Part shown: one piece after another, positions 12,738 through 41,818 of the stretch
How the letters are laid out: each line of letters opens with the position of its first letter
Position numbering within the stretch: position 1 is the stretch's first letter
Translations under genes and position numbers: made by a program
Assembly: GCF_009688965.1 (NCBI RefSeq)
Contig: NZ_AP021875.1
Span: 4,960,001-5,024,000 of the forward strand
Source: Desulfosarcina widdelii
Lineage (GTDB): Bacteria > Desulfobacterota > Desulfobacteria > Desulfobacterales > Desulfosarcinaceae
DNA length: 64,000 bases
Direction: 5' to 3'
The notes under the pieces: model-generated
What the model was told of the DNA's origin: nothing
Seen by the model: the letters and a program-made list of their open reading frames with translations, nothing else
Databases searched by the model: none

Positions 12738-13259
12738 ATGAACGACTTTGCCGCCGAACGGATTGTCAAAAGCTACACCATGCACCTTTGCGCCCCACCT
12801 GCCGAGGTATTTCCGCTACTGTGCCCTGTGCGCGAATACGAGTGGATCGAACCCTGGTCCTGTGATATGGTTTTTTCGATCGGCGGCATGGCCGAGAACA
12901 ACGCCGTTTTTACCACCGATTTCGAGACCCAGGGCGGCGCGGAAATTTGGGTGGTGTGCCGCTACGAAAAGGACCGGGCCATCGAATTCATCCGGGTCAC
13001 CCCGGGGCTGAAGGTCAACCGGCTGGATATATCCCTGGCTGCCGCAAATAACGCCACCCGGTCGATCTGGACCAATACGTTCACCGGACTGAGCGAAGCC
13101 GGCAACCAGTGGATCCGGAACCTTACGGAAGAGGCTTTTGAACTGGAAAAATCCGCTGTCGAAAAGATGCTCAATCACTATCTGAAAACCGGGGCCATGC
13201 TCAAGATGGCCGACCTGAATATCGAAACCCGATACTATGGCCAAGACAGCCGCCATTGA
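12738..13259 (+). CDS. SRPBCC (START-like) family protein
   Basis: A 173-residue protein with a START-like pattern: APPAEVFPLLCPVREYEWIEPW at the N-terminus and a long C-terminal helix (WIRNLTEEAFELEKSAVEKMLNHYL). Such folds bind hydrophobic ligands. ATG 12738 follows AAGGAGATGCAACG. The MerR gene overlaps its last 23 bases, so the two are translationally linked and the regulator may control or sense the same ligand. Confidence 0.75.
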   Translation: MNDFAAERIVKSYTMHLCAPPAEVFPLLCPVREYEWIEPWSCDMVFSIGGMAENNAVFTTDFETQGGAEIWVVCRYEKDRAIEFIRVTPGLKVNRLDISLAAANNATRSIWTNTFTGLSEAGNQWIRNLTEEAFELEKSAVEKMLNHYLKTGAMLKMADLNIETRYYGQDSRH

Positions 13260-13827
13260 GCCGGTCTACCGCATATCTCAACTGGGCCGTCTGCACGGAT
13301 TGTCCCGCAGTACCCTGCTTCACTATGACCGCATCGGACTGCTGCGGCCGTCGCAGCGCAACCGTGCCAACTACCGGGTATACAGCGCAGCCGACCGCCG
13401 GCGGCTGGCGCAGATCTGCCGTTACCGCAGCGCAGGACTCTCCTTGCAGGAGATCAAGTCCATTCTGGCAGCACCTCGGCACAAAACTGTGCAGGCCCTG
13501 GAGCGCAGGCTGGAAGCCCTGAACCGGGAGATCAAGGCCCTGCGCACCCAGCAGCGGGTGATCGTTGACCTGCTCAAGGACCGTTCGCTACTGGCCGGGA
13601 CCCGTATGCTGGACAAAGCGCGTTGGGTGGCGGTGCTGCGCGACGGCGGTCTGGACGAGGCGGCCATGGGGCAATGGCATGTGGCCTTCGAACGCATGTC
13701 TCCCGAGGCCCACCAGGATTTTCTGGAGTCGTTGGGGATGAGCGCCCCTGAAATCAAAGAGATCCGATCATGGTCCGCCGGAAAAATCTTTGACATCTGC
13801 CAAAAAAACGAGTTTCCAGATGGCTGA
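13237..13827 (+). CDS. MerR family transcriptional regulator
   Basis: A 196-residue regulator. The N-terminal MerR winged helix (YRISQLGRLHGLSRSTLLHYDRIGLL, NYRVYSAADRRRLAQI) is followed by a coiled coil (residues about 85-115) and a C-terminal ligand region. No metal-binding cysteine pair is visible, so a small-molecule effector is more likely than a metal. The start overlaps the SRPBCC gene. Its own target is not identified; the LysE-type exporter 50 bases downstream is a natural candidate. Confidence 0.85.
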   Translation: MAKTAAIEPVYRISQLGRLHGLSRSTLLHYDRIGLLRPSQRNRANYRVYSAADRRRLAQICRYRSAGLSLQEIKSILAAPRHKTVQALERRLEALNREIKALRTQQRVIVDLLKDRSLLAGTRMLDKARWVAVLRDGGLDEAAMGQWHVAFERMSPEAHQDFLESLGMSAPEIKEIRSWSAGKIFDICQKNEFPDG

Positions 13828-30297: not shown

Positions 30298-33200
30298 ATG
30301 GATGTCAACCGCAGGCAGTTTATCCAGATCACCGGCGCCGGTGCGGCCGGCCTGGCCGTGGGCGGGCTGGGCTTCGACCTGAAACCGGTCAGGGCCCATG
30401 CCGGTATGCTGAAAACCAAGTACGCCAAGGAAACCACCACGATCTGCTGCTATTGTGCGGTGGGCTGCGGGGCCATCGTGCACACCAGCAAACGGGGCGA
30501 CGGACGGGTGATCAATATCGAAGGCGATCCCGGCCATGTCATCAACCGCGGGGCACTGTGCTCCAAGGGCGCGTCCTTGAAGCAACTGGCCGAGAACGAA
30601 AAACGGCTGACCGAGCCCATGTACCGGGCACCCTATTCGGATAAATGGCAGTCGGTATCCTGGGAATGGGCTCTGGAGAAAATCGCCCATCGCGTCAAGG
30701 AGACCCGCGACGCAAATTTCACCTTCAAAAACGACAAAGGCCAGGTCGTCAACCGCACCACGGCCATCGCCTCGGTGGGCAGCGCGGCCATGGACAATGA
30801 AGAGTGCTGGGTCTACCAGGCCCTCATGCGATCCCTGGGACTGGTGTATATCGAACATCAGGCACGCATCTGACACAGCGCCACAGTTGCGGCTCTGGCA
30901 GAGTCGTTCGGACGCGGTGCGATGACCAACCACTGGATCGATCTCAAGAACAGCGACTGCATCCTGATCATGGGGAGCAACGCTGCCGAAAACCACCCGG
31001 TCTCGTTCAAGTATGTTACCGAGGCCATGGAAAAGGGGGCCACCCTCATCAATGTGGATCCCCGCTTCACAAGGACCTCCGCCAAGGCGGACATCTATAC
31101 CGCGTTGCGCTCGGGGACCGATATCGCCTTTCTCGGAGGCATGATCAAATACATCCTGGACAACGATCTCTACAACCAGGAGTATGTCTCCCTTTACACC
31201 AATGCGCCGTTTATCGTCGGCAAGAAATACGGTTTCAAGGACGGCCTTTTCTCGGGCTACGAGAAAACGCCCAAAGGCCCGGCCATGGGGAAGTATGACA
31301 AAAGCCAGTGGGCCTTCGAGATGGACAGCAACGGCGTACCCAAGATGGACCGCTCGCTGAAGCACAGACGCAGCGTTTTTCAACTGCTGAAAAAGCATTT
31401 CAGCCGCTACGATCTGAAAACCGTATCGATGGTGACGGGAACCTCCGAAGCCGACCTGAAGAAGGTGTACAGCACCTATAGCGCCACCGGAAAACGGGGC
31501 CAGGCCGGAACCATCATGTACGCCATGGGTTGGACCCAGCACACCGTCGGCACCCAGAACATCCGCACCATGGCCATGATCCAGCTGCTGCTGGGCAACA
31601 TGGGCGTGGCCGGCGGTGGCGTCAACGCCCTGCGCGGCGAATCCAACGTCCAGGGCTCCACGGATCACTGCCTGCTGTGGCATATCTGGCCCGGCTATCT
31701 GAAGACCGCCAGGGCTTCCAACACCACGCTGGCGGCCTATAACGAAAAGTGGACGCCGATCAGCAAGGACCCCCTGTCTGCCAACTGGTGGCAGAACTAT
31801 CCCAAGTACAGTGTTTCCCTGCTGAAATCCTACTTTGGCAAGGCGGCCGGATCGGCCAACGAATTCGGCTATTCGTGGCTGCCCAAAGTGGACGACGGAG
31901 TGGCCTACTCCTGGTTCGATCTGTTCGACGCCATGTACAAAGAGAAGATCAAGGGTTTTTTCGCCTGGGGCCAGAACCCGGCCTGCAGCGGGGCCAACTC
32001 CAACAAGACCCGCGAGGCCATGGCCAACCTGGACTGGATGGTCAACGTCAACCTTTTCGACAACGAGACCGGTTCGTTCTGGCGGGGGCCGGGAATGGAT
32101 CCGGGCGCCGTCAAAACCGAAGTGTTCATGCTTCCGGCCTGTGTCTCCGTGGAGAAGGAAGGGTCGATTACCAACAGCGGCCGCTGGATGCAGTGGCGCT
32201 ACCAGGGCCCCAAGCCACTGGGCAACAGCCGGCCGGACGGAGACATCATCCTGGAACTCGGAGAGAAAATCAAGGAGGTGTACAAGTCCGGCGGAGTTTT
32301 TCCCGAGCCGATTCTCAATCTTAAATGGGATTATGCCACCGAAGGCGCCTACGATCCCCACAAGGTGGCCAAGGAGATCAACGGCTATTTTGTCCAGGAT
32401 GTCACCATCAAGGACAAAATCTACAAAAAGGGCACCCTGGTGCCCAGCTTCGCTTTTCTCCAGGACGACGGGTCCACCTCTTCGGGCAACTGGCTGTACT
32501 GCAACAGCTACACCGAAAAAGGCAACATGGCCGCCCGCCGCGGCCAAGAGGACGCGGTCAACAAGATCGGCCTGTATCCCGAATTCGCCTGGTGCTGGCC
32601 GGTCAACCGGCGCATCATCTACAACCGGGCTTCGGTGGATGCCAAGGGCATTCCCTGGGACCGCAAGGACTGGGTGATCTACTTCAAGGGAGAAGAGCAG
32701 GGCGGCAAGTACGTTTCACGCAAATGGCTGGGGGACGTGCCCGACGGCGGCTGGTATCCGATGCAGAATCCGGACGGCTCCTGGCGCAAAGACACCAAGT
32801 ACCCCTTTATCATGCGCAAGCACGGCCATGCCCAGATCTTCGGACCGGGGCTGAATGACGGCCCCTTCCCAGAGCATTACGAACCCCTGGAATGCCCCAT
32901 CGAGAAAAATTACTTCAGCTCCCAGATGGTCAATCCAACCGCGGCGGTCTATTCTTCCGAGGCCGATACCCATTTCACCTGCGATCCGCGCTTTCCCTAT
33001 GTGGGGACCACCTACCGGGTGTCGGAACACTGGCAGACGGGTCTGATGACACGTCCCCAGGAATGGCTCATGGAACTGCAGCCTCAGATGTTCGTGGAGA
33101 TGAGCGAAGAGCTGGCCAGGCTCAAGGGCATCCGCGGCGGCGAACGGGTCCTTGTAAAATCGGCTCGCGGTCAGGTGGAGTGCAGCGCCATCGTCACCAA

Positions 33201-33387
33201 ACGCTTCAAGCCGTTTATCATCGGCGGGCTGACAATCCACCAGGTGGGCGTCCCCTGGCATTACGGATGGCGCTGGCCAGCCAGCGGTAAGGAGGAGAGC
33301 GCCAACCTGCTGACCCCGTCGGCCGGGGATGCCAACACCCGTATTCCGGAAACCAAGGCCTTCATGGTCAATGTGGTCAAAGCCTAA
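30298..33387 (+). CDS. fdhA: Selenocysteine formate dehydrogenase catalytic subunit, UGA read-through
   Basis: Continuous coding for 1029 residues if TGA 30871-30873 is read as selenocysteine 192. The residues around it, EHQARI-U-HSATVAALAESFGRGAMTNHW, are those of the formate dehydrogenase active site. N-terminus: a Tat signal (NRRQFIQITGAGAAGLAVGG) and a 4Fe-4S site with Cys50, Cys53, Cys57 and Cys88 (CCYCAVGCGAI, ALCSKG), then the molybdopterin/tungsten domains and a C-terminal dinucleotide-binding domain. The enzyme oxidises formate in the periplasm and passes electrons to FdhB. A hairpin follows the UGA. Ribosome site AAGGAGAAGGATT precedes ATG 30298. Homology continues unbroken across the UGA, so a frameshift or pseudogene is unlikely. 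Confidence 0.95.
30871..30908 (+). promoter_or_regulatory. Selenocysteine UGA codon and SECIS-like hairpin
   Basis: TGA at 30871-30873 is followed by GCCACAG (30880-30886), TTGCGG loop (30887-30892) and CTCTGGC (30893-30899). This is a seven-pair stem with one mismatch and a G-rich loop, at the short distance from UGA used by bacterial SECIS elements, which recruit SelB. Fold and loop sequence are my reading, not a computed structure. Confidence 0.7.
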
Positions 33388-33402: not shown

Positions 33403-34122
33403 ATGAGCTACTCATTTTTCATTGACACTGAACGGTGCACCGCATGCCGGGCCTGTCAGGTGGCCTGCAAGCAGTGGCATGACCTGCCCGCCGAAAAGAC
33501 CCAGAACTGGGGCACCTTCCAGAACCCGCCGGACCTCTCTTTTATGACCTACAAGCTGGTCCGCATGAAGGAAGAGGTGATCGACGGCAAGCTGCGATGG
33601 CTTTTTCTGCCCGAACAGTGCAGGCACTGCATCGAACCCCCGTGCCTGGAAACCGCGGACGACCCACAGGCCATTTACAAGGATGAGAAAACCGGCGCGG
33701 TGATTTTTACGGCCAATACCAAAAATCTGGATGCGAACGAGATCATCGAGTCCTGTCCATACAATATTCCGCGCAAGGCCGCCGACGGCACCCTGGCCAA
33801 GTGCGACATGTGCAACGACCGGGTGACCAACGGCCTTTTGCCGGCCTGCGTGCAGACCTGCCCGACCGGTGCCATGAATTTCGGTGAGCGGGAGGATATG
33901 CTTTCCCTGGCCGACCAGCGGTTGGCGCAGGTTAGAAAAAAGTATTCCAAGGCCCAACTGGTGGATTCGGACGATGTCAACGTGATTTACCTGATCACGG
34001 CAGCCCCGTCCGATTATCATCGGAATCTGATGGCCGCCGCCGGCGTCCACGGGTTTACGCGCCAGATGGCCCTGAAAAAAATGATGCGGCCGTTTGGCCG
34101 GGCGATACGCCAGTTGGCATAG
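33403..34122 (+). CDS. fdhB: Formate dehydrogenase iron-sulfur subunit
   Basis: A 239-residue electron-transfer subunit with four ferredoxin-type cluster motifs. The clear ones are CTACRACQVAC near residue 12, CRHCIEPPC near 73, CPYNIP and CDMCNDRVTNGLLPACVQTCP near 128-150. It takes electrons from the FdhA cluster and hands them to periplasmic cytochromes. No signal peptide is present; it would be exported as a Tat hitch-hiker with FdhA. It starts 15 bases after fdhA. No cytochrome b gene follows, so the enzyme looks like the soluble periplasmic FdhAB of sulfate reducers rather than the membrane-bound FdnGHI type. Confidence 0.92.
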   Translation: MSYSFFIDTERCTACRACQVACKQWHDLPAEKTQNWGTFQNPPDLSFMTYKLVRMKEEVIDGKLRWLFLPEQCRHCIEPPCLETADDPQAIYKDEKTGAVIFTANTKNLDANEIIESCPYNIPRKAADGTLAKCDMCNDRVTNGLLPACVQTCPTGAMNFGEREDMLSLADQRLAQVRKKYSKAQLVDSDDVNVIYLITAAPSDYHRNLMAAAGVHGFTRQMALKKMMRPFGRAIRQLA

Positions 34123-34251: not shown

Positions 34252-35130
34252 ATGACCCATACGCCATTGTGGGATGAATCTGCCGTAGAAAAAGCCGTGG
34301 CCCAAATGACGGCCAAACGCCCTGCCTATGCTTCCATACTGGGTTTTTACGGTCCGGTTTTCATTGCACAGATCAAAGCGGGTGCGCACGTTTCTCCTGC
34401 CGCCATTGCAGTGGATGAGTCCATCCTGAAGATAAAAATCAAGGAAGGGTTTTCACTGATTGCCCCGGCGGACTTCACGATTGACCTTCCCGCAGCCGAA
34501 AAACTGTTGGCGGATATCTGCAGCATTGCCGCAGTATCGGGCGAGAAACTGTCGGGGGCCGGCAAGGAACTGGCCCTGGCCATGGCAGAGCGAGAATCAT
34601 TGGAGGATCTATTTCATGATGTGCTGGACAACAAGGGCCGCCTGGATGCCATGGCCGGAAAAAGCAATGTCCCGGCGGACATGCTCTCCCTGCTGCTCTA
34701 CCTCTCTATAAAGCCCAGCATCGAGTCCGGCTCCCGGCAACTGGCGGCGTTTTTGGAAGAGAATGCCGACGGTCATGGGAACTGCCCGATTTGCGGCAGT
34801 GCTCCGATCATCGGTGAGCTGGATGCCGACGGCCGGCTATGGGTCCACTGCAGCCTGTGCGGTCATCGCTGGTCGATCGAGCGCATGGTTTGTCTGTTTT
34901 GCGGCAACCGGGACAGCGCCTCCCTGGAATACCTGTACAGCGAGAATGAACCCGAGTACCGCGTGTACCTGTGCAATGAATGCCGGCATTATCTGAAAGT
35001 CGTGGATACCCGCAAACTGGCGCGCGTTTTTTACCCTCCCCTGGAGCAGGTGGTTTCCCTGCATCTGGATCTGATGGCTTCCGAGAAGGGGTTTACGCAT
35101 GTTTTGGGAGCCGGAACGGCAATGGCGTAA
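34252..35130 (+). CDS. fdhE: Formate dehydrogenase accessory protein FdhE
   Basis: A 292-residue cytoplasmic maturation factor. Its C-terminal half has four CxxC pairs (CPIC, CSLC, CLFC, CNEC; about residues 181-245) that form rubredoxin-like knuckles binding iron. FdhE proteins help assemble the formate dehydrogenase before Tat export. It is two genes after fdhA, separated by a terminator-like hairpin, with an AAAGGAACC site before ATG 34252. Bases 34918-34971 recur 6.6 kb downstream as an isolated fragment. Confidence 0.9.
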   Translation: MTHTPLWDESAVEKAVAQMTAKRPAYASILGFYGPVFIAQIKAGAHVSPAAIAVDESILKIKIKEGFSLIAPADFTIDLPAAEKLLADICSIAAVSGEKLSGAGKELALAMAERESLEDLFHDVLDNKGRLDAMAGKSNVPADMLSLLLYLSIKPSIESGSRQLAAFLEENADGHGNCPICGSAPIIGELDADGRLWVHCSLCGHRWSIERMVCLFCGNRDSASLEYLYSENEPEYRVYLCNECRHYLKVVDTRKLARVFYPPLEQVVSLHLDLMASEKGFTHVLGAGTAMA

Positions 35131-35198: not shown

Positions 35199-36530
35199 TT
35201 ACGAAACGTTAAAACGGATTATTTTGCGTCGCAATGTATTTTTATGAATGCCGAGTTCTCTGGCTGTTTTGCTTTTGTTCCATTGGTTTCGCTCCAATGC
35301 TTGGGTGATGGCTTCTTTTTCGATATCCTTAAGCACCCGACTTGGAGGGTCTTTAATTTTTTTGTCTAAAGGCAAAAACCTTTCTGGCAAGTGCTCTCGG
35401 CGGATGAGCTTTTCACGGCACATGACAAAAGCATGCTCGATGGCATTTTCGAGCTCTCTCACATTTCCCTGCCAATCGTATAACATCAGCAAGGCCAATG
35501 CCTCCTGTGATACGCCCAAGATCTCTTTCCCATTGAGAACATTGAAGCGCTCAATGAAATGATCGATCAGTGATGGGATATCTTCTTTGCGGTTCCGTAG
35601 CGGTGGCAGCACCAGCCGGACAATGTTGATGCGATAATACAGATCTTCCCGGAAGTTCCCATTTTGTACCATTTGATACAGGTTGTGGTGAGTGGCGGCA
35701 ATAACCCTGGCATTGGTGCGAACCGGTTCGACAGAACCCAGGGGTTCGTATACTTTTTGTTCCAGTACACGAAGCAATTTGGCCTGAACAGCCAAAGAGA
35801 TGTCGCCGATTTCATCCAATAAAATCGTTCCCTTATGAGCCTGGTCGAAGCGACCGGGCTTGTCTTTTTTCGCGTCCGTAAAGGCACCGACCTTATATCC
35901 GAACAATTCGGACTCAAACAGGTTGTCCGGCAATGCACTGCAGTTCACAGCCACAAAAGGGCCTTTTGCCTGGAAGCTGCTATTATGAATCGCCCGTGCA
36001 ACAAGCTCTTTTCCGGTGCCGCTTTCTCCCTCGATCAAGACCGTGCTCCTGCTCTGGGCGATCTGGGGGAGAATGGCGAAAATTTTCTGCATTTGCTTGT
36101 TTTTACTAATGATGTCTTCAAATGTATGCTGCTTTTGGAGTTCTTTATGGAGTGTATTGATGTCGGATAAATCTCGGAAGGACATCACACCGCCGATGAT
36201 CCTGTTTTCCGCATTTCTTAAAATGCCGGTCGTCATGTTAATGGGAATTTGTTTCTGGTCTGCACGGATAATGTAAATTGGACGGTTAGGAACGGTTTTT
36301 CGGTCTTCCATGACCTGTTTCAGGGTGCATTGATCTTCGCACATGCTGCTTCGCAGCACCTCGAAACATTTGCGCCCGATCGCCTCTTCATTGCTGATCC
36401 CTGTGATCCTTTCGGCTGCTTTGTTGAAAGACGTCACTCGCCAGTTCAAATCAACCGTATAGACACCATCGGCAATGGAATCCAGAATGCTTCGATACAA
36501 TCTGGGAAAGGGTTTGTCCAACTCGAACAT
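35199..36530 (-). CDS. PAS/sigma-54 interaction domain/Fis transcriptional activator
   Basis: A 443-residue enhancer-binding protein. Residues 5-125 form a PAS domain with a conserved cysteine cluster (Cys55, Cys64 and Cys68 in KCFEVLRSSMCEDQCTL), perhaps a redox or metal sensor. The AAA+ domain has Walker A GESGTGKE at 168-175, DEIGDIS, and the loop GAFTDA (215-220) in place of the consensus GAFTGA. A Fis-type helix-turn-helix ends the protein (WNKSKTARELGIHKNTLRRKII). ATG 36530 is chosen over the open frame from 36641 because AAAGGA stands nine bases upstream. It is divergent from the module at 36869 and very probably activates its sigma-54 promoter. Confidence 0.9.
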   Translation of the reverse strand: MFELDKPFPRLYRSILDSIADGVYTVDLNWRVTSFNKAAERITGISNEEAIGRKCFEVLRSSMCEDQCTLKQVMEDRKTVPNRPIYIIRADQKQIPINMTTGILRNAENRIIGGVMSFRDLSDINTLHKELQKQHTFEDIISKNKQMQKIFAILPQIAQSRSTVLIEGESGTGKELVARAIHNSSFQAKGPFVAVNCSALPDNLFESELFGYKVGAFTDAKKDKPGRFDQAHKGTILLDEIGDISLAVQAKLLRVLEQKVYEPLGSVEPVRTNARVIAATHHNLYQMVQNGNFREDLYYRINIVRLVLPPLRNRKEDIPSLIDHFIERFNVLNGKEILGVSQEALALLMLYDWQGNVRELENAIEHAFVMCREKLIRREHLPERFLPLDKKIKDPPSRVLKDIEKEAITQALERNQWNKSKTARELGIHKNTLRRKIIRFNVS

Positions 36531-36652
36531 ACTGTTGCGTCCTTTCCGCTGATGGTTTGCAGACAGGTGCAAATTGGTACCCACCGCACATAAAATGGCT
36601 GCATTTTGTTCTACTTTCGCCTTAATAATCACAGAAGGCAAATATCTGTCAA

Positions 36653-36673
36653 ATAATAAATTAGCTTTATTAT
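36653..36673. promoter_or_regulatory. Inverted repeat, candidate upstream activator site
   Basis: ATAATAAA (36653-36660) and TTTATTAT (36666-36673) are perfect inverted repeats around TTAGC. Their centre lies about 50 bases upstream of the -24 element, in a normal place for a dimeric Fis-domain activator. The AT-rich sequence could also pair by chance. Confidence 0.4.
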
Positions 36674-36711
36674 ATTAGAATAATTAAAAAAAATATAAAA
36701 TTCATATAAAT

Positions 36712-36727
36712 TGGAATGCATTTTGCC
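36712..36727 (+). promoter_or_regulatory. Sigma-54 (-24/-12) promoter
   Basis: TGGAATG-CATT-TTGCC has GG at 36713-36714 and GC at 36725-36726, ten bases apart as sigma-54 requires, and TTGC at the -12 element. It faces the cytochrome gene with 141 bases of leader and lies next to a sigma-54 activator gene. Confidence 0.75.
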
Positions 36728-36801
36728 CCATTGGTCCTGTCGAATAGGGCTATCATTAAATTTCACACCATTTTTCACCCCCGAACATTTCGTCTTAAAA
36801 A

Positions 36802-36837
36802 GCTGCAAGCGGGTTCCCACGTAAGATTCCTTGCAGC
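36802..36837 (+). promoter_or_regulatory. Leader stem-loop before the cytochrome gene
   Basis: GCTGCAAG (36802-36809) and CTTGCAGC (36830-36837) are perfectly complementary with a 20-base loop. The stem ends 25 or so bases before the ribosome site and lies inside the predicted sigma-54 transcript, so it may affect translation or stability. Confidence 0.4.
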
Positions 36838-36868
36838 CCAAACAGGGAAAAGAAAAGAGGAGGGCTTT

Positions 36869-37201
36869 ATGAAGAAAAGGCATGTGGGTTGGTGGCGGGT
36901 ATCTACCTTTTTTATTTGTGCGCTTTTTTTGCTGGGGGGACTTTGCATCATGGCGAATCAGAGCATGGCAAAAAACAAGTCCGTTGCCCATAAGGCGGCG
37001 TTCGCCCTTTATGCAAAAAAATGCCTTGGCTGCCACGACTCGGTCGCCGACCCCGAAAAACCGGGTCGTACGCGCGATGACTGGCACCTTGTGGTCAACG
37101 TCATGCACAAATACGGCATGGACCTGACAGCAGATGAAGCGGATATGATTGTCGACCTGCTTTACGATCTAAGGCAGGGAATGGAAAGAGAAGCTGGATA
37201 A
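36869..37201 (+). CDS. Small monoheme c-type cytochrome
   Basis: A 110-residue protein. A signal anchor (STFFICALFLLGGLCIMANQS) is followed by a single heme motif CLGCH at about residues 53-57 and a helical C-terminus (DWHLVVNVMHKYGMDLTADEADMIVDLLYDL), which supplies a plausible distal methionine. GAGGAGGGCTTT precedes ATG 36869. It is the first gene behind the sigma-54 promoter. It probably carries electrons for the rest of the module in the periplasm; partner unknown. Confidence 0.75.
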   Translation: MKKRHVGWWRVSTFFICALFLLGGLCIMANQSMAKNKSVAHKAAFALYAKKCLGCHDSVADPEKPGRTRDDWHLVVNVMHKYGMDLTADEADMIVDLLYDLRQGMEREAG

Positions 37202-37250
37202 ATAAAATAGTCCACAGATATCGATTATTCTTACTTAAAAAGGAGAACTC

Positions 37251-38348
37251 ATGAAACGAAGGACTTTTCTTAAATCAATGGCGGCCACCGGGATAGCCTC
37301 TTCCATGACAGGGGCTGTGATTCCAAGCAGTGCTGAAGCAGCCAAAAAGCTGGATATCGGTGAAATCAAGGGACTTAAAATCGATGTGCTGACGGAAACG
37401 AGCTGGTTCGACAACGATGTTTTCAAAAAAGATATCATGGATTACGGCGGGGCCATGACCAACCAATACACGATTCCCTGGAAATGGGACAATGCCGGTG
37501 GGTATGCGGTTTTGATTACGGTCACCACGCTCGAAGGCCAGGAACGCAAATTCATGATGGACTTCGGTTGGAACAATGAGTGGATGGATTATATCTACGA
37601 AGAAAAAAGCGATGTCGCTTCCTTGATCAGCAAAGATGAAATCGAATTCTGGGTTCTGTCTCACTGGCATCTGGATCATTATTGGGGCGTCGAATCCACG
37701 TTGAAACGCAAACAGGATATCACTTTGTATGCGCCGGCAACCTACTACCCCGAAGATATGGCGCTGCTCAAGGACAAGGCCCATCACAAAGCGAAGAACA
37801 AAGAAACCGGCCAGATGGATCATATCTGCAAGAACGATTACCCCCATACGGGAAAACTGGTTCTGTGCGATCCCAAAGGTGAAAACGGGGAAGGGATTTA
37901 TCGAATGATGCCCGGCGTGGCGGTTCGAAATTTCGATGTGCCGATTCTTTTGAGGGTTCGGGGTGAAAACGTTCTCTATTTCAACGTAAAAGACAAAGGC
38001 GTGGTTACGGTAACCGGCTGCTGCCATCCCGGAATTCTTTCACTGTTTTCCTATGCGAGAAGGAACTTCCAGGGATATAAACCCTATGGCTGTTATGGCG
38101 GACTGCACATCAGTCTGTTTGAGACCTGGGATCCCAAATTTGACGATATCATCAAAGGCGTAAAGTCCTTCAAGATTCAAAAGCTCGGCTGCAACCACTG
38201 CACCGGCTGGATATGGGCTGAAAAGGCGGCCGCATCAGGCGTTCCGGTAGTTAAAGGGACGGATAAATATAAATCCTACAAGAAATTTTCAACGGTGGCC
38301 AAGGCCAGCAATGTTTTCCTCACCAATGGGGATACTGTCACGTTTTGA
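37251..38348 (+). CDS. Tat-exported metallo-beta-lactamase-fold hydrolase
   Basis: A 365-residue protein. It starts with a Tat-type signal (MKRRTFLKSMAATGIASSMTG) and has the MBL metal site HWHLDH (His138, His140, Asp142, His143). The later TGCCHPGI (His259), GGLHIS (His286) and GCNHCTGW (His316) resemble the dihydropterin-ribofuranosyl-aminobenzene phosphate synthase branch of the fold, where GCSHPGI and HCTG are typical. Natural substrates of exported members are unknown to me. It lies 50 bases after the cytochrome gene, behind an AAAAGGAGAACTC site, which suggests a periplasmic reaction. Confidence 0.78.
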   Translation: MKRRTFLKSMAATGIASSMTGAVIPSSAEAAKKLDIGEIKGLKIDVLTETSWFDNDVFKKDIMDYGGAMTNQYTIPWKWDNAGGYAVLITVTTLEGQERKFMMDFGWNNEWMDYIYEEKSDVASLISKDEIEFWVLSHWHLDHYWGVESTLKRKQDITLYAPATYYPEDMALLKDKAHHKAKNKETGQMDHICKNDYPHTGKLVLCDPKGENGEGIYRMMPGVAVRNFDVPILLRVRGENVLYFNVKDKGVVTVTGCCHPGILSLFSYARRNFQGYKPYGCYGGLHISLFETWDPKFDDIIKGVKSFKIQKLGCNHCTGWIWAEKAAASGVPVVKGTDKYKSYKKFSTVAKASNVFLTNGDTVTF

Positions 38349-38389
38349 TCATTCGCTCTGCCTTTAGGGTCAATGTGGTGAATGGAAGG

Positions 38390-38421
38390 AAAGGGGATGT
38401 CCTGTCCCAAGGCTCCCCTTT
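38390..38421 (+). terminator. Hairpin between MBL gene and membrane protein gene
   Basis: AAAGGGGA (38390-38397) pairs with TCCCCTTT (38414-38421), followed by TTCCCC. It is terminator-like but weak, and lies within a co-directional run, so it may set a lower level for the downstream genes. Confidence 0.5.
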
Positions 38422-38448
38422 TTCCCCTAAAAGCGTAAGGAGGCTTGT

Positions 38449-39672
38449 ATGACCGAGGAGAGTTCGGATTTCAAATTCAACTATTTTTTCGGACTGGTTA
38501 ATCTTGTTGCCGTGTTTTTGATCGTCTGGTTCCTCTGGTATATTTTTATGAATCCAAATACGGTCATGAAATTGTATACGCCCATGTATGGCTTTTCGTT
38601 GATCGTGGTATTTTTATCGGGCATTATTCTCATGGCAAAAGTTCTCAAATGGCCTGCATGGTATAATCGACTATTCCAGAAAGACAAGCCGATCACCAAA
38701 GGAATCCTGTTGACGATCATCGCTTTTTTATTAATGATCGGGTTGAATTACATCGTTTTCTGGGGCTTTATCGGAAAATTCGGTATCGCCTATTTCAGTC
38801 CGGATTCCATTGTGGCTTCCGGCGGTATCGGGGCAGAGCCCTTTGTGGCGCGGGAAAACGCCTCCACGGCCATTGTCTACTTTTTTACAGCATTTCTTTG
38901 GATGGCGCTGTTCTGGGATCTTGGTTTCGGGCGCTGGCCCTGGCAGAATGACACTTATGGCGTACAGGCATGGTCCAAGTTGTTTGCGATCCTTTTTTTT
39001 GTAGTACTTTTCTATATTCTCCTTTTCCATTCCCATGTCTGCTATCTTTTTTATCCCGCGCAGGATAAAGCTGCCGTGACTCCCTGGTGGGAGGAATTAG
39101 CCGGCACCGGCAGCGCCTTTTTCAGCCTGGGGCTCATTCTCTGTACGCTTGTTTGGATCGTCTTTTCCGACCTCTTGTGGGAGGGCAAACCCTGGAATCG
39201 GTATGAAGTGGACGGCGAAAGCACCTTCGGCAAAGGGTTTGTCGTATTTTTCAGCACCCTGACCTTCGGCATTATCCTGATATTTATTCTACTGATGATT
39301 TTTAATTATGTGTGGATGGAGCCGTTCGTGGGCGGTCAGTATACGGATGGCCCGGACTGGCGATATATCCACGCCGGTGAAATTGCCGGTTTTTTTATTT
39401 TAGCGGCATTTATCTGGAAAAACTATTTTAACAATTTTCCCAACCTTGACAGCCTGTGGCTGCGAGCTCTGATCCGAAGTATCATCGCTGTTGTCTTAGG
39501 ATTGCTCATTTACTGGTTTTACTATTCACCGCTGGCCACCTTTTTTCTGGCCAAAGTGGAAGGTTTTGCCCAACCGGGGGATACTCCGTTGGTTTGGGCA
39601 TTGCTGTTTTTAAGTATCATTTTGGTACAGAGCGAATTCTTTGATGGATGGCCGTTAAAAAGAAAGAAATAG
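38449..39672 (+). CDS. Unrecognised ten-helix membrane protein
   Basis: A 407-residue integral membrane protein with about ten hydrophobic helices. Examples are VNLVAVFLIVWFLWYIFM near residue 17, GFSLIVVFLSGIILMAKVL near 48, LFAILFFVVLFYILLFHSHV near 185 and SIIAVVLGLLIYWFYYSP near 350. It is rich in aromatic residues, and a helix-end motif FHSHVCYLFYP has histidines and a cysteine. I do not recognise the family. ATAGGAGGCTTGT precedes ATG 38449. It sits after the exported MBL gene and could be its transporter or membrane partner. Confidence 0.65.
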   Translation: MTEESSDFKFNYFFGLVNLVAVFLIVWFLWYIFMNPNTVMKLYTPMYGFSLIVVFLSGIILMAKVLKWPAWYNRLFQKDKPITKGILLTIIAFLLMIGLNYIVFWGFIGKFGIAYFSPDSIVASGGIGAEPFVARENASTAIVYFFTAFLWMALFWDLGFGRWPWQNDTYGVQAWSKLFAILFFVVLFYILLFHSHVCYLFYPAQDKAAVTPWWEELAGTGSAFFSLGLILCTLVWIVFSDLLWEGKPWNRYEVDGESTFGKGFVVFFSTLTFGIILIFILLMIFNYVWMEPFVGGQYTDGPDWRYIHAGEIAGFFILAAFIWKNYFNNFPNLDSLWLRALIRSIIAVVLGLLIYWFYYSPLATFFLAKVEGFAQPGDTPLVWALLFLSIILVQSEFFDGWPLKRKK

Positions 39673-39684
39673 ACAGGACGAACC

Positions 39685-39957
39685 ATGGCGGATAGCAGCA
39701 GACGGCGGTTTCTGAGCGATTATTTTCTGCATCAGGCGGGTCGATGTTTGCAGGGATTTGAAGACGGCTTGGAAGAAGCGCGACAGAAAGCCGAGTTCGA
39801 CCAATTCTTCGATTCCTATGAATCGAGCTATGCCCTGACACTGGCGTATCCGGATGATATCCTGCTTGAAACCGCCAGAAAGTACGATATTGAAACAGAA
39901 GGCCGTCCGAAAAAAGATATCGTGAAGGAACTTTTTATTAAAAAAGGGGGATTTTAA
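39685..39957 (+). CDS. Small unrecognised cytoplasmic protein
   Basis: A 90-residue helical protein, highly charged, beginning MADSSRRRFLSDYFLHQAGRC and ending with a KDIVKELFIKKGGF tail. The early SRRRFL resembles a Tat motif but no hydrophobic stretch follows, so it is not a signal peptide. I do not recognise the family. It begins 12 bases after the membrane protein stop and its own stop abuts the next reading frame. Confidence 0.6.
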   Translation: MADSSRRRFLSDYFLHQAGRCLQGFEDGLEEARQKAEFDQFFDSYESSYALTLAYPDDILLETARKYDIETEGRPKKDIVKELFIKKGGF

Positions 39958-39958
39958 C

Positions 39959-40903
39959 ATCGAACTCGAAAGCTTTTTCAGAAGCCGGATCGAAGGGATG
40001 CTGATTGTTTCGTCCTGGAGCGAGCAATTCAGGGCCGATGTCGGTCTAAAGGGTTTCAGCCAGGTATGGGGAGGCCCGCCTGCGTGGTACATCTGGCTGG
40101 CAGATGCCCCCGGTGTTTATCATTTAGCGCTTATAGATACCGAAGAAGAGAAACACAAAGGTAAGGCTTTCAGTAAAGCCGTTTTTGCCGTCAAATGTTA
40201 TCCGTATCCTGATAACGCGTGTTATTCATCGTTTTCTTTCATTGAGCAAAAACTTATTCAAAGCAGCTTTTTCGATGAAACACATACACCGGTTTTCGAG
40301 TGCAAAGAAAAAATCCCTTCGGATCTTTTTAATATAGCGATGCTTGAAATTACTATGGATGACGAGGCAAATATGGCCAGCTTCTGTGTTGAAACGCTGG
40401 ACATCCTTCGAAGCCGCTATGCTTCCAAAACAGATCAAATCTTTCCAGTCCTGGATATTGCCCGAAAGTTTGTCGTGGACGAGATCGATCGGGATATTCC
40501 GGGATTGGAAATCGCTTACCCCTTGTTTGACTGTTTAATGTGCCTGTATGCCAATGCCGGCAAACAGGCACCTGTTCAGGTTCAATGTTCCAAAACACCT
40601 GGTTTTGAAGTCGTTATCGAACGTGGCAAAGTGAGTGCCAAGCCGAACAAGGCCATCAACGGTTACAGGTTGACCGTCCTTTATGCTGCAGCTGATTGTC
40701 ATGAGCAGATAAATACTGAACCCATGCAGATCGATATAGAAGAATGCGGAGAATCGCCTTTCTACAGGCGAATATTCGCCTGTGGTCATTTTCATGATGA
40801 AGAAGTGGATGGAAACCTGCCGATAACCATCAACAAGAATTGGTGGTCCCTTGCGCACAGGCACTATGTTTCTGAATTAGCCTCGTCATGCGGTTGTCAC
40901 TGA
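39959..40903 (+). CDS. Unrecognised 314-residue protein with irregular start
   Basis: No known family seen. It is cytoplasmic, with GGPPAWYIWLADAPGVYHLALIDTEE near the N-terminus, YPLFDCLMCLYANAGK in the middle and a cysteine-rich end (LASSCGCH). Coding quality extends upstream of the first ATG (39998), and GGGGG lies eight bases before ATC 39959 (codons IELESFFRSRIEGM). No ATG, GTG or TTG occurs in frame between TGA 39923 and 39998, and the site before ATG 39998 is too close. The start is therefore either a rare ATC or the 39998 ATG; I give the longer form. It follows the 90-residue gene by one base. Confidence 0.55.
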   Translation: MELESFFRSRIEGMLIVSSWSEQFRADVGLKGFSQVWGGPPAWYIWLADAPGVYHLALIDTEEEKHKGKAFSKAVFAVKCYPYPDNACYSSFSFIEQKLIQSSFFDETHTPVFECKEKIPSDLFNIAMLEITMDDEANMASFCVETLDILRSRYASKTDQIFPVLDIARKFVVDEIDRDIPGLEIAYPLFDCLMCLYANAGKQAPVQVQCSKTPGFEVVIERGKVSAKPNKAINGYRLTVLYAAADCHEQINTEPMQIDIEECGESPFYRRIFACGHFHDEEVDGNLPITINKNWWSLAHRHYVSELASSCGCH

Positions 40904-40972
40904 TAAAAGTAACTTTATGAATAGCGATGCAAATACAAAGGCTATTTGCGCTAAGAATAAAGAATCTTTAAA

Positions 40973-41329
40973 ATGACAAAGATTGCCATCCCGACATTTC
41001 GGAAGCGGGTATCACCGGTATTTGATACATGCAAGCATATGCTGGTGATCAATTGTAAAAATGGATCTGAAGTCGGTCGCGAAAGTATCTTCCTCGACAA
41101 TATGACCTTGAACGAAAGGTGTCGTATTATCGAAAATTTGGGAGTTACCGTTATTATTTGTGGTGGTATCAGTGAGGCTTTCGGGAAAATTCTCAAGTGC
41201 GTCAAGATCGAATTGACCAATGGAATAGCCGGTGAGGTTGAGGACGTGCTATCGGCGTATTTGGATGGCTGCCTGGATACTCCGAAATTCTACATGCCGG
41301 GTTTTAACCCAAACGGCGAGCGGAAGTAA
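40973..41329 (+). CDS. NifX/NifB-type metal-cluster-binding protein
   Basis: A 118-residue protein of the dinitrogenase iron-molybdenum cofactor family (TKIAIPTFRKRVSPVFDTCKHML, GVTVIICGGISEAFGKIL). NifX, NafY and NifB C-termini share this fold and carry Mo- or Fe-S-cofactor precursors. Outside nitrogen fixation such proteins are common in sulfate reducers, where some act in metal cluster handling. It is the last gene of the module, 69 bases after the previous stop, with a weak ribosome site. Confidence 0.75.
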   Translation: MTKIAIPTFRKRVSPVFDTCKHMLVINCKNGSEVGRESIFLDNMTLNERCRIIENLGVTVIICGGISEAFGKILKCVKIELTNGIAGEVEDVLSAYLDGCLDTPKFYMPGFNPNGERK

Positions 41330-41818
41330 ACGCTTTCTCAATATCAACGATGCCTTACGGTAAAGCTCTGGATCTGACAACCAAGCTCAAACGGATTGAT
41401 AATGCTGGCTCAACCGTCGCGCCGGCAAACATGATTTTACGTCCATTCGACATCGCGCTTCAAGTGCGTTTGCATCTGCAACGATACCCAATTTGCTCAA
41501 GTCCTGCGTCTTTCCTCAAGAGACCGTGCCTCCCTGGAATACCTGTACAGTGATAATGAACACGAGTACCGCGTGTAGCTGGAATCGTTTTGCCTAAAAT
41601 TGAACGGATTCTATTTTTTTAGCCTTGGCGTATCGAACAAGGATTGGTTGAATTAACGATATATTATGTGGTAGCTTAAAACATTCGTTTGCTTCCAACT
41701 CTCTATTATGCCCCAACTTGACGCTATTGATAGTGGAGATTGTTGCAAACAAAGTGAAGGACAGCATAAATGCCGATGTGCTGGCTTAGGTGAACTTTAT
41801 TCAGCTTATGTGTCTAAG
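41330..41818. other. Degenerate AT-rich intergenic region with fdhE fragment
   Basis: This stretch between the NifX-like gene and the binding-protein gene has no supported gene. A 67-codon frame (41350-41553) overlaps the fdhE fragment and shows no recognisable protein. The sequence from 41580 on is AT-rich. Confidence 0.5.
41528..41581 (+). pseudogene. fdhE: 54-base fragment of fdhE
   Basis: These bases match fdhE 34918-34971 with only four differences and the same reading frame would give ASLEYLYSDNEHEYRV before a stop. Nothing else of fdhE flanks it. It is a recent partial duplication and lies 6.6 kb from the source in the same orientation. Confidence 0.85.

Follow-up and report, generated by a model that had tools for sequence, protein, structure and literature searches.

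What kind of system is encoded by a run of six genes in Desulfosarcina widdelii, three of which yield proteins without a Pfam family? The six co-directional frames span positions 36869 to 41329 of the 64,000-nucleotide stretch analyzed here (the window; contig NZ_AP021875.1, positions 4,960,001 to 5,024,000), which belongs to a 7.3-Mb genome assembled as one contig, and a divergent gene for a sigma-54-dependent activator was read from the sequence upstream of them (35199 to 36530, minus strand). The genes are part of a conserved multi-gene system with three protein families that lack a Pfam counterpart; two of these, a ten-helix membrane protein (TM10) and a protein termed P5, were modeled well and have no match in the PDB. 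On the basis of gene content and motifs, the locus is tentatively interpreted as an exported metallo-hydrolase system, in which a metallo-beta-lactamase-fold protein (MBL) would be served by the putative metal-maturation factors P5 and P4 and by TM10 as a periplasm-facing membrane partner, and we give this reading a little under an even chance. The features of the locus are the following.

35199 to 36530, minus strand: P0007, sigma-54-dependent activator with PAS, AAA+ (GAFTDA) and Fis-type helix-turn-helix domains (Pfam)
36712 to 36727, plus strand: near-consensus -24/-12 element and probable promoter, TGGAATGCATTTTGCC (pattern scoring against 200 shuffles)
36869 to 37201, plus strand: P0001, monoheme cytochrome c with a signal-like N-terminus and one CLGCH; optional, class A only
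37251 to 38348, plus strand: P0002, COG1237-type MBL, a predicted hydrolase with a twin-arginine translocation (Tat) signal; core (Pfam, 2p4z alignment)
38388 to 38423, plus strand: hairpin 3' of the MBL gene with the stem GGAAAGGGGA/TCCCCTTTTT (stem counts across loci)
38449 to 39672, plus strand: P0003 (TM10), ten-helix membrane protein; core, new family (AlphaFold2; no Pfam, NCBIfam or PDB match)
39685 to 39957, plus strand: P0004 (P4), 90 residues, N-terminal SRRRFL; core in classes A and B (locus comparison)
39959 to 40903, plus strand: P0005 (P5), no visible signal peptide, C-terminal SCGCH, probable ATC start; core (AlphaFold2, homologs)
40973 to 41329, plus strand: P0006, NifX/ORP-like protein; optional (Nitro_FeMo-Co)

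All parts named in the initial annotation (activator, -24/-12 site, cytochrome, Tat-dependent MBL, ten-helix protein, two unrecognized proteins and NifX-like protein) were found in the window. Pfam and NCBIfam searches assigned P0007, P0002 and P0006 to families, placed the cytochrome weakly and gave nothing usable for TM10, P4 and P5. Genes were called as the longest frames, and some start sites are therefore overextended; the gaps across the six-gene run measure 49, 100, 12, 1 and 69 nt, the fourth with P5 counted from 39959. No RNA family reached its gathering threshold between 35000 and 42000.

A conserved core in four architectures

TM10 was detected in 12 of the 40 nearest genomes, in 76/389 genomes of the class and in 33/395 of the phylum, these samples overlapping, and additionally in 34 named contigs whose titles refer to deltaproteobacterial groups or are unspecific; homologs on plasmids were not found in PLSDB. 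The phylum of a relative from the same genus is Thermodesulfobacteriota, which equals Desulfobacterota in GTDB and is rich in sulfate reducers. The surroundings were taken for most TM10 matches, and the 128 frames were reduced to 103 by dropping identical 120-residue cores. All loci were thus selected for carrying TM10 and many assemblies are fragmentary, and counts of loci "with room" refer to those whose contig extends far enough to show the gene in question.

The 103 nonredundant loci revealed a conserved core of MBL, TM10, P4 and P5 and four architectures. Class A (33 loci), to which the window belongs, reads MBL-TM10-P4-P5 with an optional cytochrome gene in front and an optional NifX-like gene behind, and P5 is missing only from L044, where the locus ends. 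Class B (15 loci) has the order MBL-TM10-P5-P4, and class C (26 loci) the order TM10-MBL followed by a P5::CobW fusion, which is adjacent in 23 loci and otherwise lies about 3 kb behind the MBL gene (L169), lies on the other strand (L182) or is unseen on a short contig (L181). Class D comprises 29 loci with TM10 and without MBL, 13 of them with genes for AMP-forming acyl-CoA synthetases within 9 kb. Overall, the MBL gene adjoins TM10 in 74 of the 103 distinct loci, and P5 is present in 70 of these 74. An independent search for P5 yielded 56 of the 389 genomes of the class, 51 of which also have TM10; the five others are G012, G205, G258, G314 and G371, and the matches in G205 and G314 start at most 6 bases from the contig start. 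According to the initial annotation, the grouping would fall if homologs of the six genes never occurred together; since many related members of the phylum carry them together, the conservation that it anticipated is confirmed.

The core genes are also inherited together. Across 70 loci, classes A, B and C each form a clade in the TM10 tree, and the MBL and P5 trees recover the clades B and C, with A not separated from B. Tree distances of the three proteins correlate within each class (r of 0.75 to 0.94, Mantel p 0.001) and across all classes (r of 0.90 to 0.92). The host genome itself carries a second module, of class B (G000:C1:4847627-4851787; L022, L036), whose MBL is 55% identical. Among the matches listed in a full-text search of open-license papers, no description of the module was found, in agreement with its initial designation as undescribed, and term searches within individual papers yielded no passage about it.

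The predicted exported hydrolase and its putative maturation factors

P0002 is best regarded as a COG1237-type MBL-fold protein with predicted hydrolase activity. Its Pfam Lactamase_B score (23.5 bits) lies just above the cutoff of 22.7, and it aligns to 2p4z at 8.3e-10 with the regions of the metal motifs HxHxDH, GCxHxG, GGxH and HCTG matched, the motif set of COG1237-type hydrolases (2p4z, 7dck). In the MBL family of the module (n = 74), HxHxDH is present in 74, GCxHxG in 62, GGxH in 73 and CxHCT in 73 members, and the GCxHxG misses fall on 11 class C proteins and one of class A. All three features of a Tat substrate that were considered are present: the N-terminus MKRRTFLKSMAATG combines a twin-arginine motif (RRTFLK) with a hydrophobic stretch, and the genome contains tatC (TatC, 2.3e-74). 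An RR motif near the N-terminus is shared by 72/74 family members; the Pfam model TAT_signal stayed below its cutoff on P0002. P0002 differs from these COG1237-type hydrolases in its Tat signal and in its association with TM10, P4 and P5.

The main reason for regarding P5 as a metal-handling maturation factor is the exchange of its CxC tail in classes A and B for a fused CobW GTPase in class C. A C-terminal CxC or CC is present in 45/47 class A and B members versus 8/527 body windows of the same size and in 1/23 class C proteins, and a CobW GTPase domain with CXCC and P-loop is fused in all 23 adjacent class C cases, 21 of them with NKxD. In the fusion P0009, Pfam detected cobW (6.1e-43) and CobW_C (4.1e-15). 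COG0523 GTPases, e.g., the nitrile hydratase activator, are linked to metallocenter assembly (PMC2770081). The class C fusion resembles them in its CobW and CobW_C pair with P-loop and CXCC, and differs in the N-terminal P5 domain, which is new and stands alone in classes A and B; the P5 of the window accordingly consists of this partner domain and the CxC tail, without a GTPase domain. The initially proposed idea of metal handling therefore survives with another carrier, as the evidence points to P5 with its CxC tail or CobW fusion and not to the NifX-like protein.

P5 of the window (314 residues) had no Pfam or NCBIfam match at E 1, and Pfam scans of 31 relatives gave none or isolated weak matches. 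The AlphaFold2 model is of high quality, with a predicted local distance difference test score (pLDDT) of 90 and a predicted template modeling score (pTM) of 0.89; a PDB match was found neither by sequence nor by Foldseek, where nothing fell below E 0.06, and the START/Bet v1-like entries, which were not significant, were given no weight. In a comparison of the class C fusion with plasmids, the best 10 of 2094 records matched mainly over the GTPase part. The P5 gene itself likely starts with a non-AUG codon, the ATC at 39959: homology begins 13 codons ahead of the first ATG, no in-frame ATG, GTG or TTG precedes 39998, and the ATC lies eight bases 3' of AAGGGGG and recurs in L024, L038 and L039 (by eye). 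In L041, P5 starts with a GTG that overlaps the P4 stop (by eye). A frameshift between P4 and P5 at an A6G5 tract was rejected, since the shift needed differs in L053 (by eye).

P4 is present in all 33 class A and all 15 class B loci, and an RRxF-type motif occurs in 47 of these 48 members. Pfam matches of the window protein were at chance level, scans of 17 P4 proteins from the loci gave none or isolated weak matches, with no family at cutoff, and none of 49 P4 sequences contains CxxCH. A small frame with an RRxF-type motif ahead of TM10 in 17/26 fusion loci (counted without a control, L105 possibly being a chance case) may be the P4 counterpart of class C.

Some Tat enzymes have dedicated cytosolic maturation factors, such as HypB for hydrogenase or TorD-type chaperones, and here an exported metalloenzyme is likewise encoded beside presumed cytosolic helpers; no Pfam or PDB relation to these helpers was found for P5, and no Pfam relation for P4. 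In the mechanism that we propose, P0007 would turn on the operon via sigma-54, and the set as a whole would be induced through PAS-bearing or GntR regulators. The MBL would be folded and loaded with metal in the cytosol by dedicated factors, P5 handling the metal through its CxC/His tail or the fused CobW GTPase, and P4, in which the N-terminal sequence is similar to the RRxFL motif found in the MBL, possibly serving as a second factor. The loaded enzyme would then be exported by Tat and act in the periplasm on or beside TM10, the conserved loops of which would face that side, and TM10 might dock the enzyme or take up its product. In class A, a small c-type cytochrome and a carrier of the NifX-like type would often join the set. 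Sequence comparison establishes the gene set and its joint inheritance, the Tat and metal motifs, the CobW fusion and the hairpin, and the remaining steps are inferred. If metal delivery by P5 is correct, the module represents a new way of filling a metalloenzyme before Tat export, and the alternative of CxC tail and fused GTPase is a natural experiment on the contribution of COG0523 GTPases.

The last element of this mechanism is the hairpin behind the MBL gene, which in the mRNA would hold enzyme output above that of the neighbors. Stems of at least nine pairs (G-T pairs allowed) follow the MBL stop in 26/32 class A, 10/15 class B and 20/23 class C loci (56/70), versus 4.1, 1.6 and 2.4 expected from mononucleotide shuffles; the stems are unlike one another in sequence between loci, and the window hairpin taken alone is not significant (p 0.13). 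After TM10, class C has 4/26 stems versus 3.4 expected. Since the stem tracks the MBL gene whether it lies before or after TM10, we interpret it as a 3' stabilizer or a partial terminator through which more MBL would be made.

The membrane protein TM10 and competing interpretations

TM10 of the window had no Pfam or NCBIfam match at E 1, and 14 relatives scanned with both gave none or isolated weak matches. Its AlphaFold2 model shows ten long helices (pLDDT 84, pTM 0.89) and has no PDB relative by sequence and none below E 0.24 in Foldseek; with the module as context, the function of this ten-helix family without a known fold becomes directly testable. Lysine and arginine amount to 13 in 84 cytosolic versus 6 in 110 other-side loop residues, and five conserved loops are therefore assigned to the periplasm by the positive-inside rule. 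Conserved positions, defined as at least 97% identical to the window residue, number 26/110 in periplasmic loops, 7/84 in cytosolic segments and 14/213 in helices for classes A and B, 16, 5 and 8 for classes A to C, and 4, 5 and 6 when class D, which lacks the MBL, is added. Since little loop conservation is left after this addition, the constancy of the loops among distant members is linked to the occurrence of the MBL. A repeat of five hairpins is suggestive only: u1-u5 (7e-5), u4-u5 (2e-4), u1-u3 and u3-u5 (about 4e-3 to 5e-3) were similar, the remaining 6 of 10 pairs had E values of at least 0.02, and the column-shuffled controls lose hydrophobic periodicity too. An apparently decayed TM10 copy with an internal TAA was observed at G018:C6:75730-76569.

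The strongest competitor is carboxylate scavenging, in which the MBL would open a lactone, ester or amide, TM10 would be a new-family permease importing the released acid, and cytosolic enzymes would oxidize or activate it. The class B copy of the host genome (L036) and that of a relative adjoin LutB, GlcD and GlcF-like genes, a tripartite ATP-independent periplasmic (TRAP) transporter is encoded close to three loci of class B and one of class A, and four of the 13 class D loci with acyl-CoA synthetases also encode a DUF294 protein (Pfam on examples). In class C, a PAS protein is encoded near 14/26 loci, in four cases on the opposite strand, and 10/26 have a GntR regulator nearby; these PAS and GntR-FCD regulators, together with those of the sigma-54 type, suggest substrate induction. 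The lactate/glycolate-type genes and the acyl-CoA synthetases are thus a hint at organic acids in a minority of loci. However, most class A and C loci are without carboxylate-type neighbors within 9 kb, with many contigs being short, Foldseek found no transporter fold for TM10 in the PDB, and the stronger conservation of TM10 in loops of one side than in helices is not what a permease would be expected to show. We consider this interpretation unlikely. As a separate observation, genes of a glycine-betaine-type ATP-binding cassette transporter (ATPase with CBS, OpuAC) are located shortly before a class A module of G660 (L175:1992-6350).

A periplasmic redox module, as originally suggested for the locus, is less probable still. 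TM10 would pass electrons between the quinone pool and cytochrome c, with the MBL as a redox or sulfur enzyme and the NifX-like protein as a cluster carrier. P0001 has a single CLGCH and a weak Cytochrome_CBB3 match (6e-4, below the Pfam cutoff), a cytochrome homolog is present in 22/29 class A loci with room (exactly one CxxCH in 20/22), and H194 and H308 of TM10 are conserved in classes A to C. However, a cytochrome was found neither in the 15 loci of class B nor in the 26 of class C, although both classes keep MBL, TM10 and P5, and the label of a redox module is therefore not retained. Alternative complex III subunits are listed by Foldseek for TM10, but at E 0.25 to 1.1 and query TM-scores of 0.14 to 0.16 they are not significant, and TM10 does not qualify as an alternative complex III or NrfD-like fold; none of 103 TM10 sequences contains CxxCH, and no Pfam redox domain was detected in TM10, P4 or P5.

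P0006 matches Nitro_FeMo-Co above cutoff (8.6e-7) and is similar to the terminal part of MrpORP (2.7e-9, far under the cutoff of that model), and a NifX-like gene lies behind P5 in 11/24 class A loci with room. In Desulfovibrio vulgaris, a sigma-54 activator reportedly adjoins genes with NifX/ORP-like domains in the orp operons, which the window resembles in its activator near a NifX/ORP-like gene; unlike there, this gene is optional in the present module. Judged from the loci compared, the cytochrome, the NifX-like gene and the sigma-54 activator are options outside the conserved core, and since cytochrome and NifX-like protein are additions, electron transfer is treated as a rival and not as the core function. 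Behind the NifX-like gene of L039, a CGGC-domain protein is encoded (12833-13261; Pfam 9.6e-21), and L049 and L059 have frames of the same cluster close to their modules.

Envelope defense or detoxification, with the MBL destroying a harmful compound or signal (e.g., a lactone or antibiotic) sensed by PAS regulators, would agree with the MBL fold, inducible regulators and the patchy spread of TM10 among the nearest genomes, but dedicated metal machinery and a membrane partner would be unusual for defense and PADLOC matched 0/7 proteins at E 0.01, with no search aimed at resistance genes, which makes it very improbable and led us to reject anti-phage defense.

The proposed exported metallo-hydrolase system itself has to be weighed against several observations. 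Apart from the independent P5 search, the co-occurrence counts come from loci picked for TM10, and the correlated trees also hold the species phylogeny. Metal delivery by P5 is argued from the tail motif and the fusion of a protein that has no detectable fold relative. The orientation of TM10 is derived from a modest positive-inside bias with segment borders drawn by hand on the model helices, and the contrast in conservation is weaker in class A alone (22/110 loop, 9/84 cytosolic, 20/213 helix). A mild stem excess also follows TM10 in classes A and B (12/46 versus 4.5 expected). No substrate is indicated and the neighbors vary among loci, TRAP, GlcD/F or LutB genes being near 2 to 3 of 15 class B loci and 1/33 of class A, and GlcD near 2/26 of class C. 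Class D TM10, with its frequent acyl-CoA synthetase neighbors, exists without the MBL and therefore has a function of its own. The more specific version, in which P5 would be a new metal-delivery class, alone with its CxC/His tail or CobW-fused, that loads and proofreads the metallo-hydrolase with P4 before Tat export, and TM10 a new five-hairpin fold and the periplasmic catalytic or uptake partner of the enzyme, is doubtful, if somewhat better placed than the scavenging of carboxylates.

Probable sigma-54 control and flanking genes

Sigma-54 control of the window operon is likely, in agreement with the initial annotation. P0007 combines Sigma54_activat (4.6e-67), PAS (8.7e-14) and HTH_8 (2e-15), and an rpoN gene was identified in the genome. 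The sigma-54 contact motif of P0007 reads GAFTDA instead of GAFTGA; GAFTDA is present in 13/13 class A and 3/3 class C activators found, and class B has six GAFTGA and one GAFTDA. A divergent sigma-54 activator occurs in 12/26 class A and 6/10 class B loci with room.

The probable promoter TGGAATGCATTTTGCC is the best -24/-12 site in the gap facing the activator, with GG and GC correctly spaced ten bases apart. It was called canonical at first, yet two positions of its -24 element deviate from TGGCAC and its last base is C, and it is therefore near-consensus. Its score was matched or beaten by 3% of the 200 shuffles of its own gap (p 0.03). The 34 loci with a divergent activator were reduced to 20 distinct ones, the window included, with repeated copies of a region recognized by eye and discarded; the best site had p ≤ 0.05 in 13, 0.055 in two and 0.11 to 0.40 in five of them, and in three of the 13 (L030, L064, L071) it lies about 910 bases ahead of the MBL gene. 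The promoter weights were self-set and built on the -24/-12 consensus, with which the published tGGcacg/tTGCt agrees (PMC4641369). A strict -24/-12 pattern occurs 22 times in the genome versus 3 times for a reversed control, and the window site is not among the 22.

On the other side of the activator, the window contains a formate dehydrogenase alpha chain gene (30298-33387), recognized by inspection, which an in-frame TGA, probably for selenocysteine, divides in two. It is followed by an FdhB-like frame (33403-34122), likewise assigned by inspection, and by an FdhE-like gene (34252-35130; FdhE_central above cutoff). Formate dehydrogenase and fdhE are neighbors of the module both here and in G004 (L024); since they are not beside it in L025 (D. 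alkanivorans), they were not counted as its parts. Behind the NifX-like gene, a 60-bp piece (41522-41581) is 90% identical to fdhE (34912-34971). The module therefore lies between fdhE and a fragment of this gene, which suggests an insertion or duplication at fdhE. A counterpart of this remnant in G004 measures 50 bp (L024:5362-5411).

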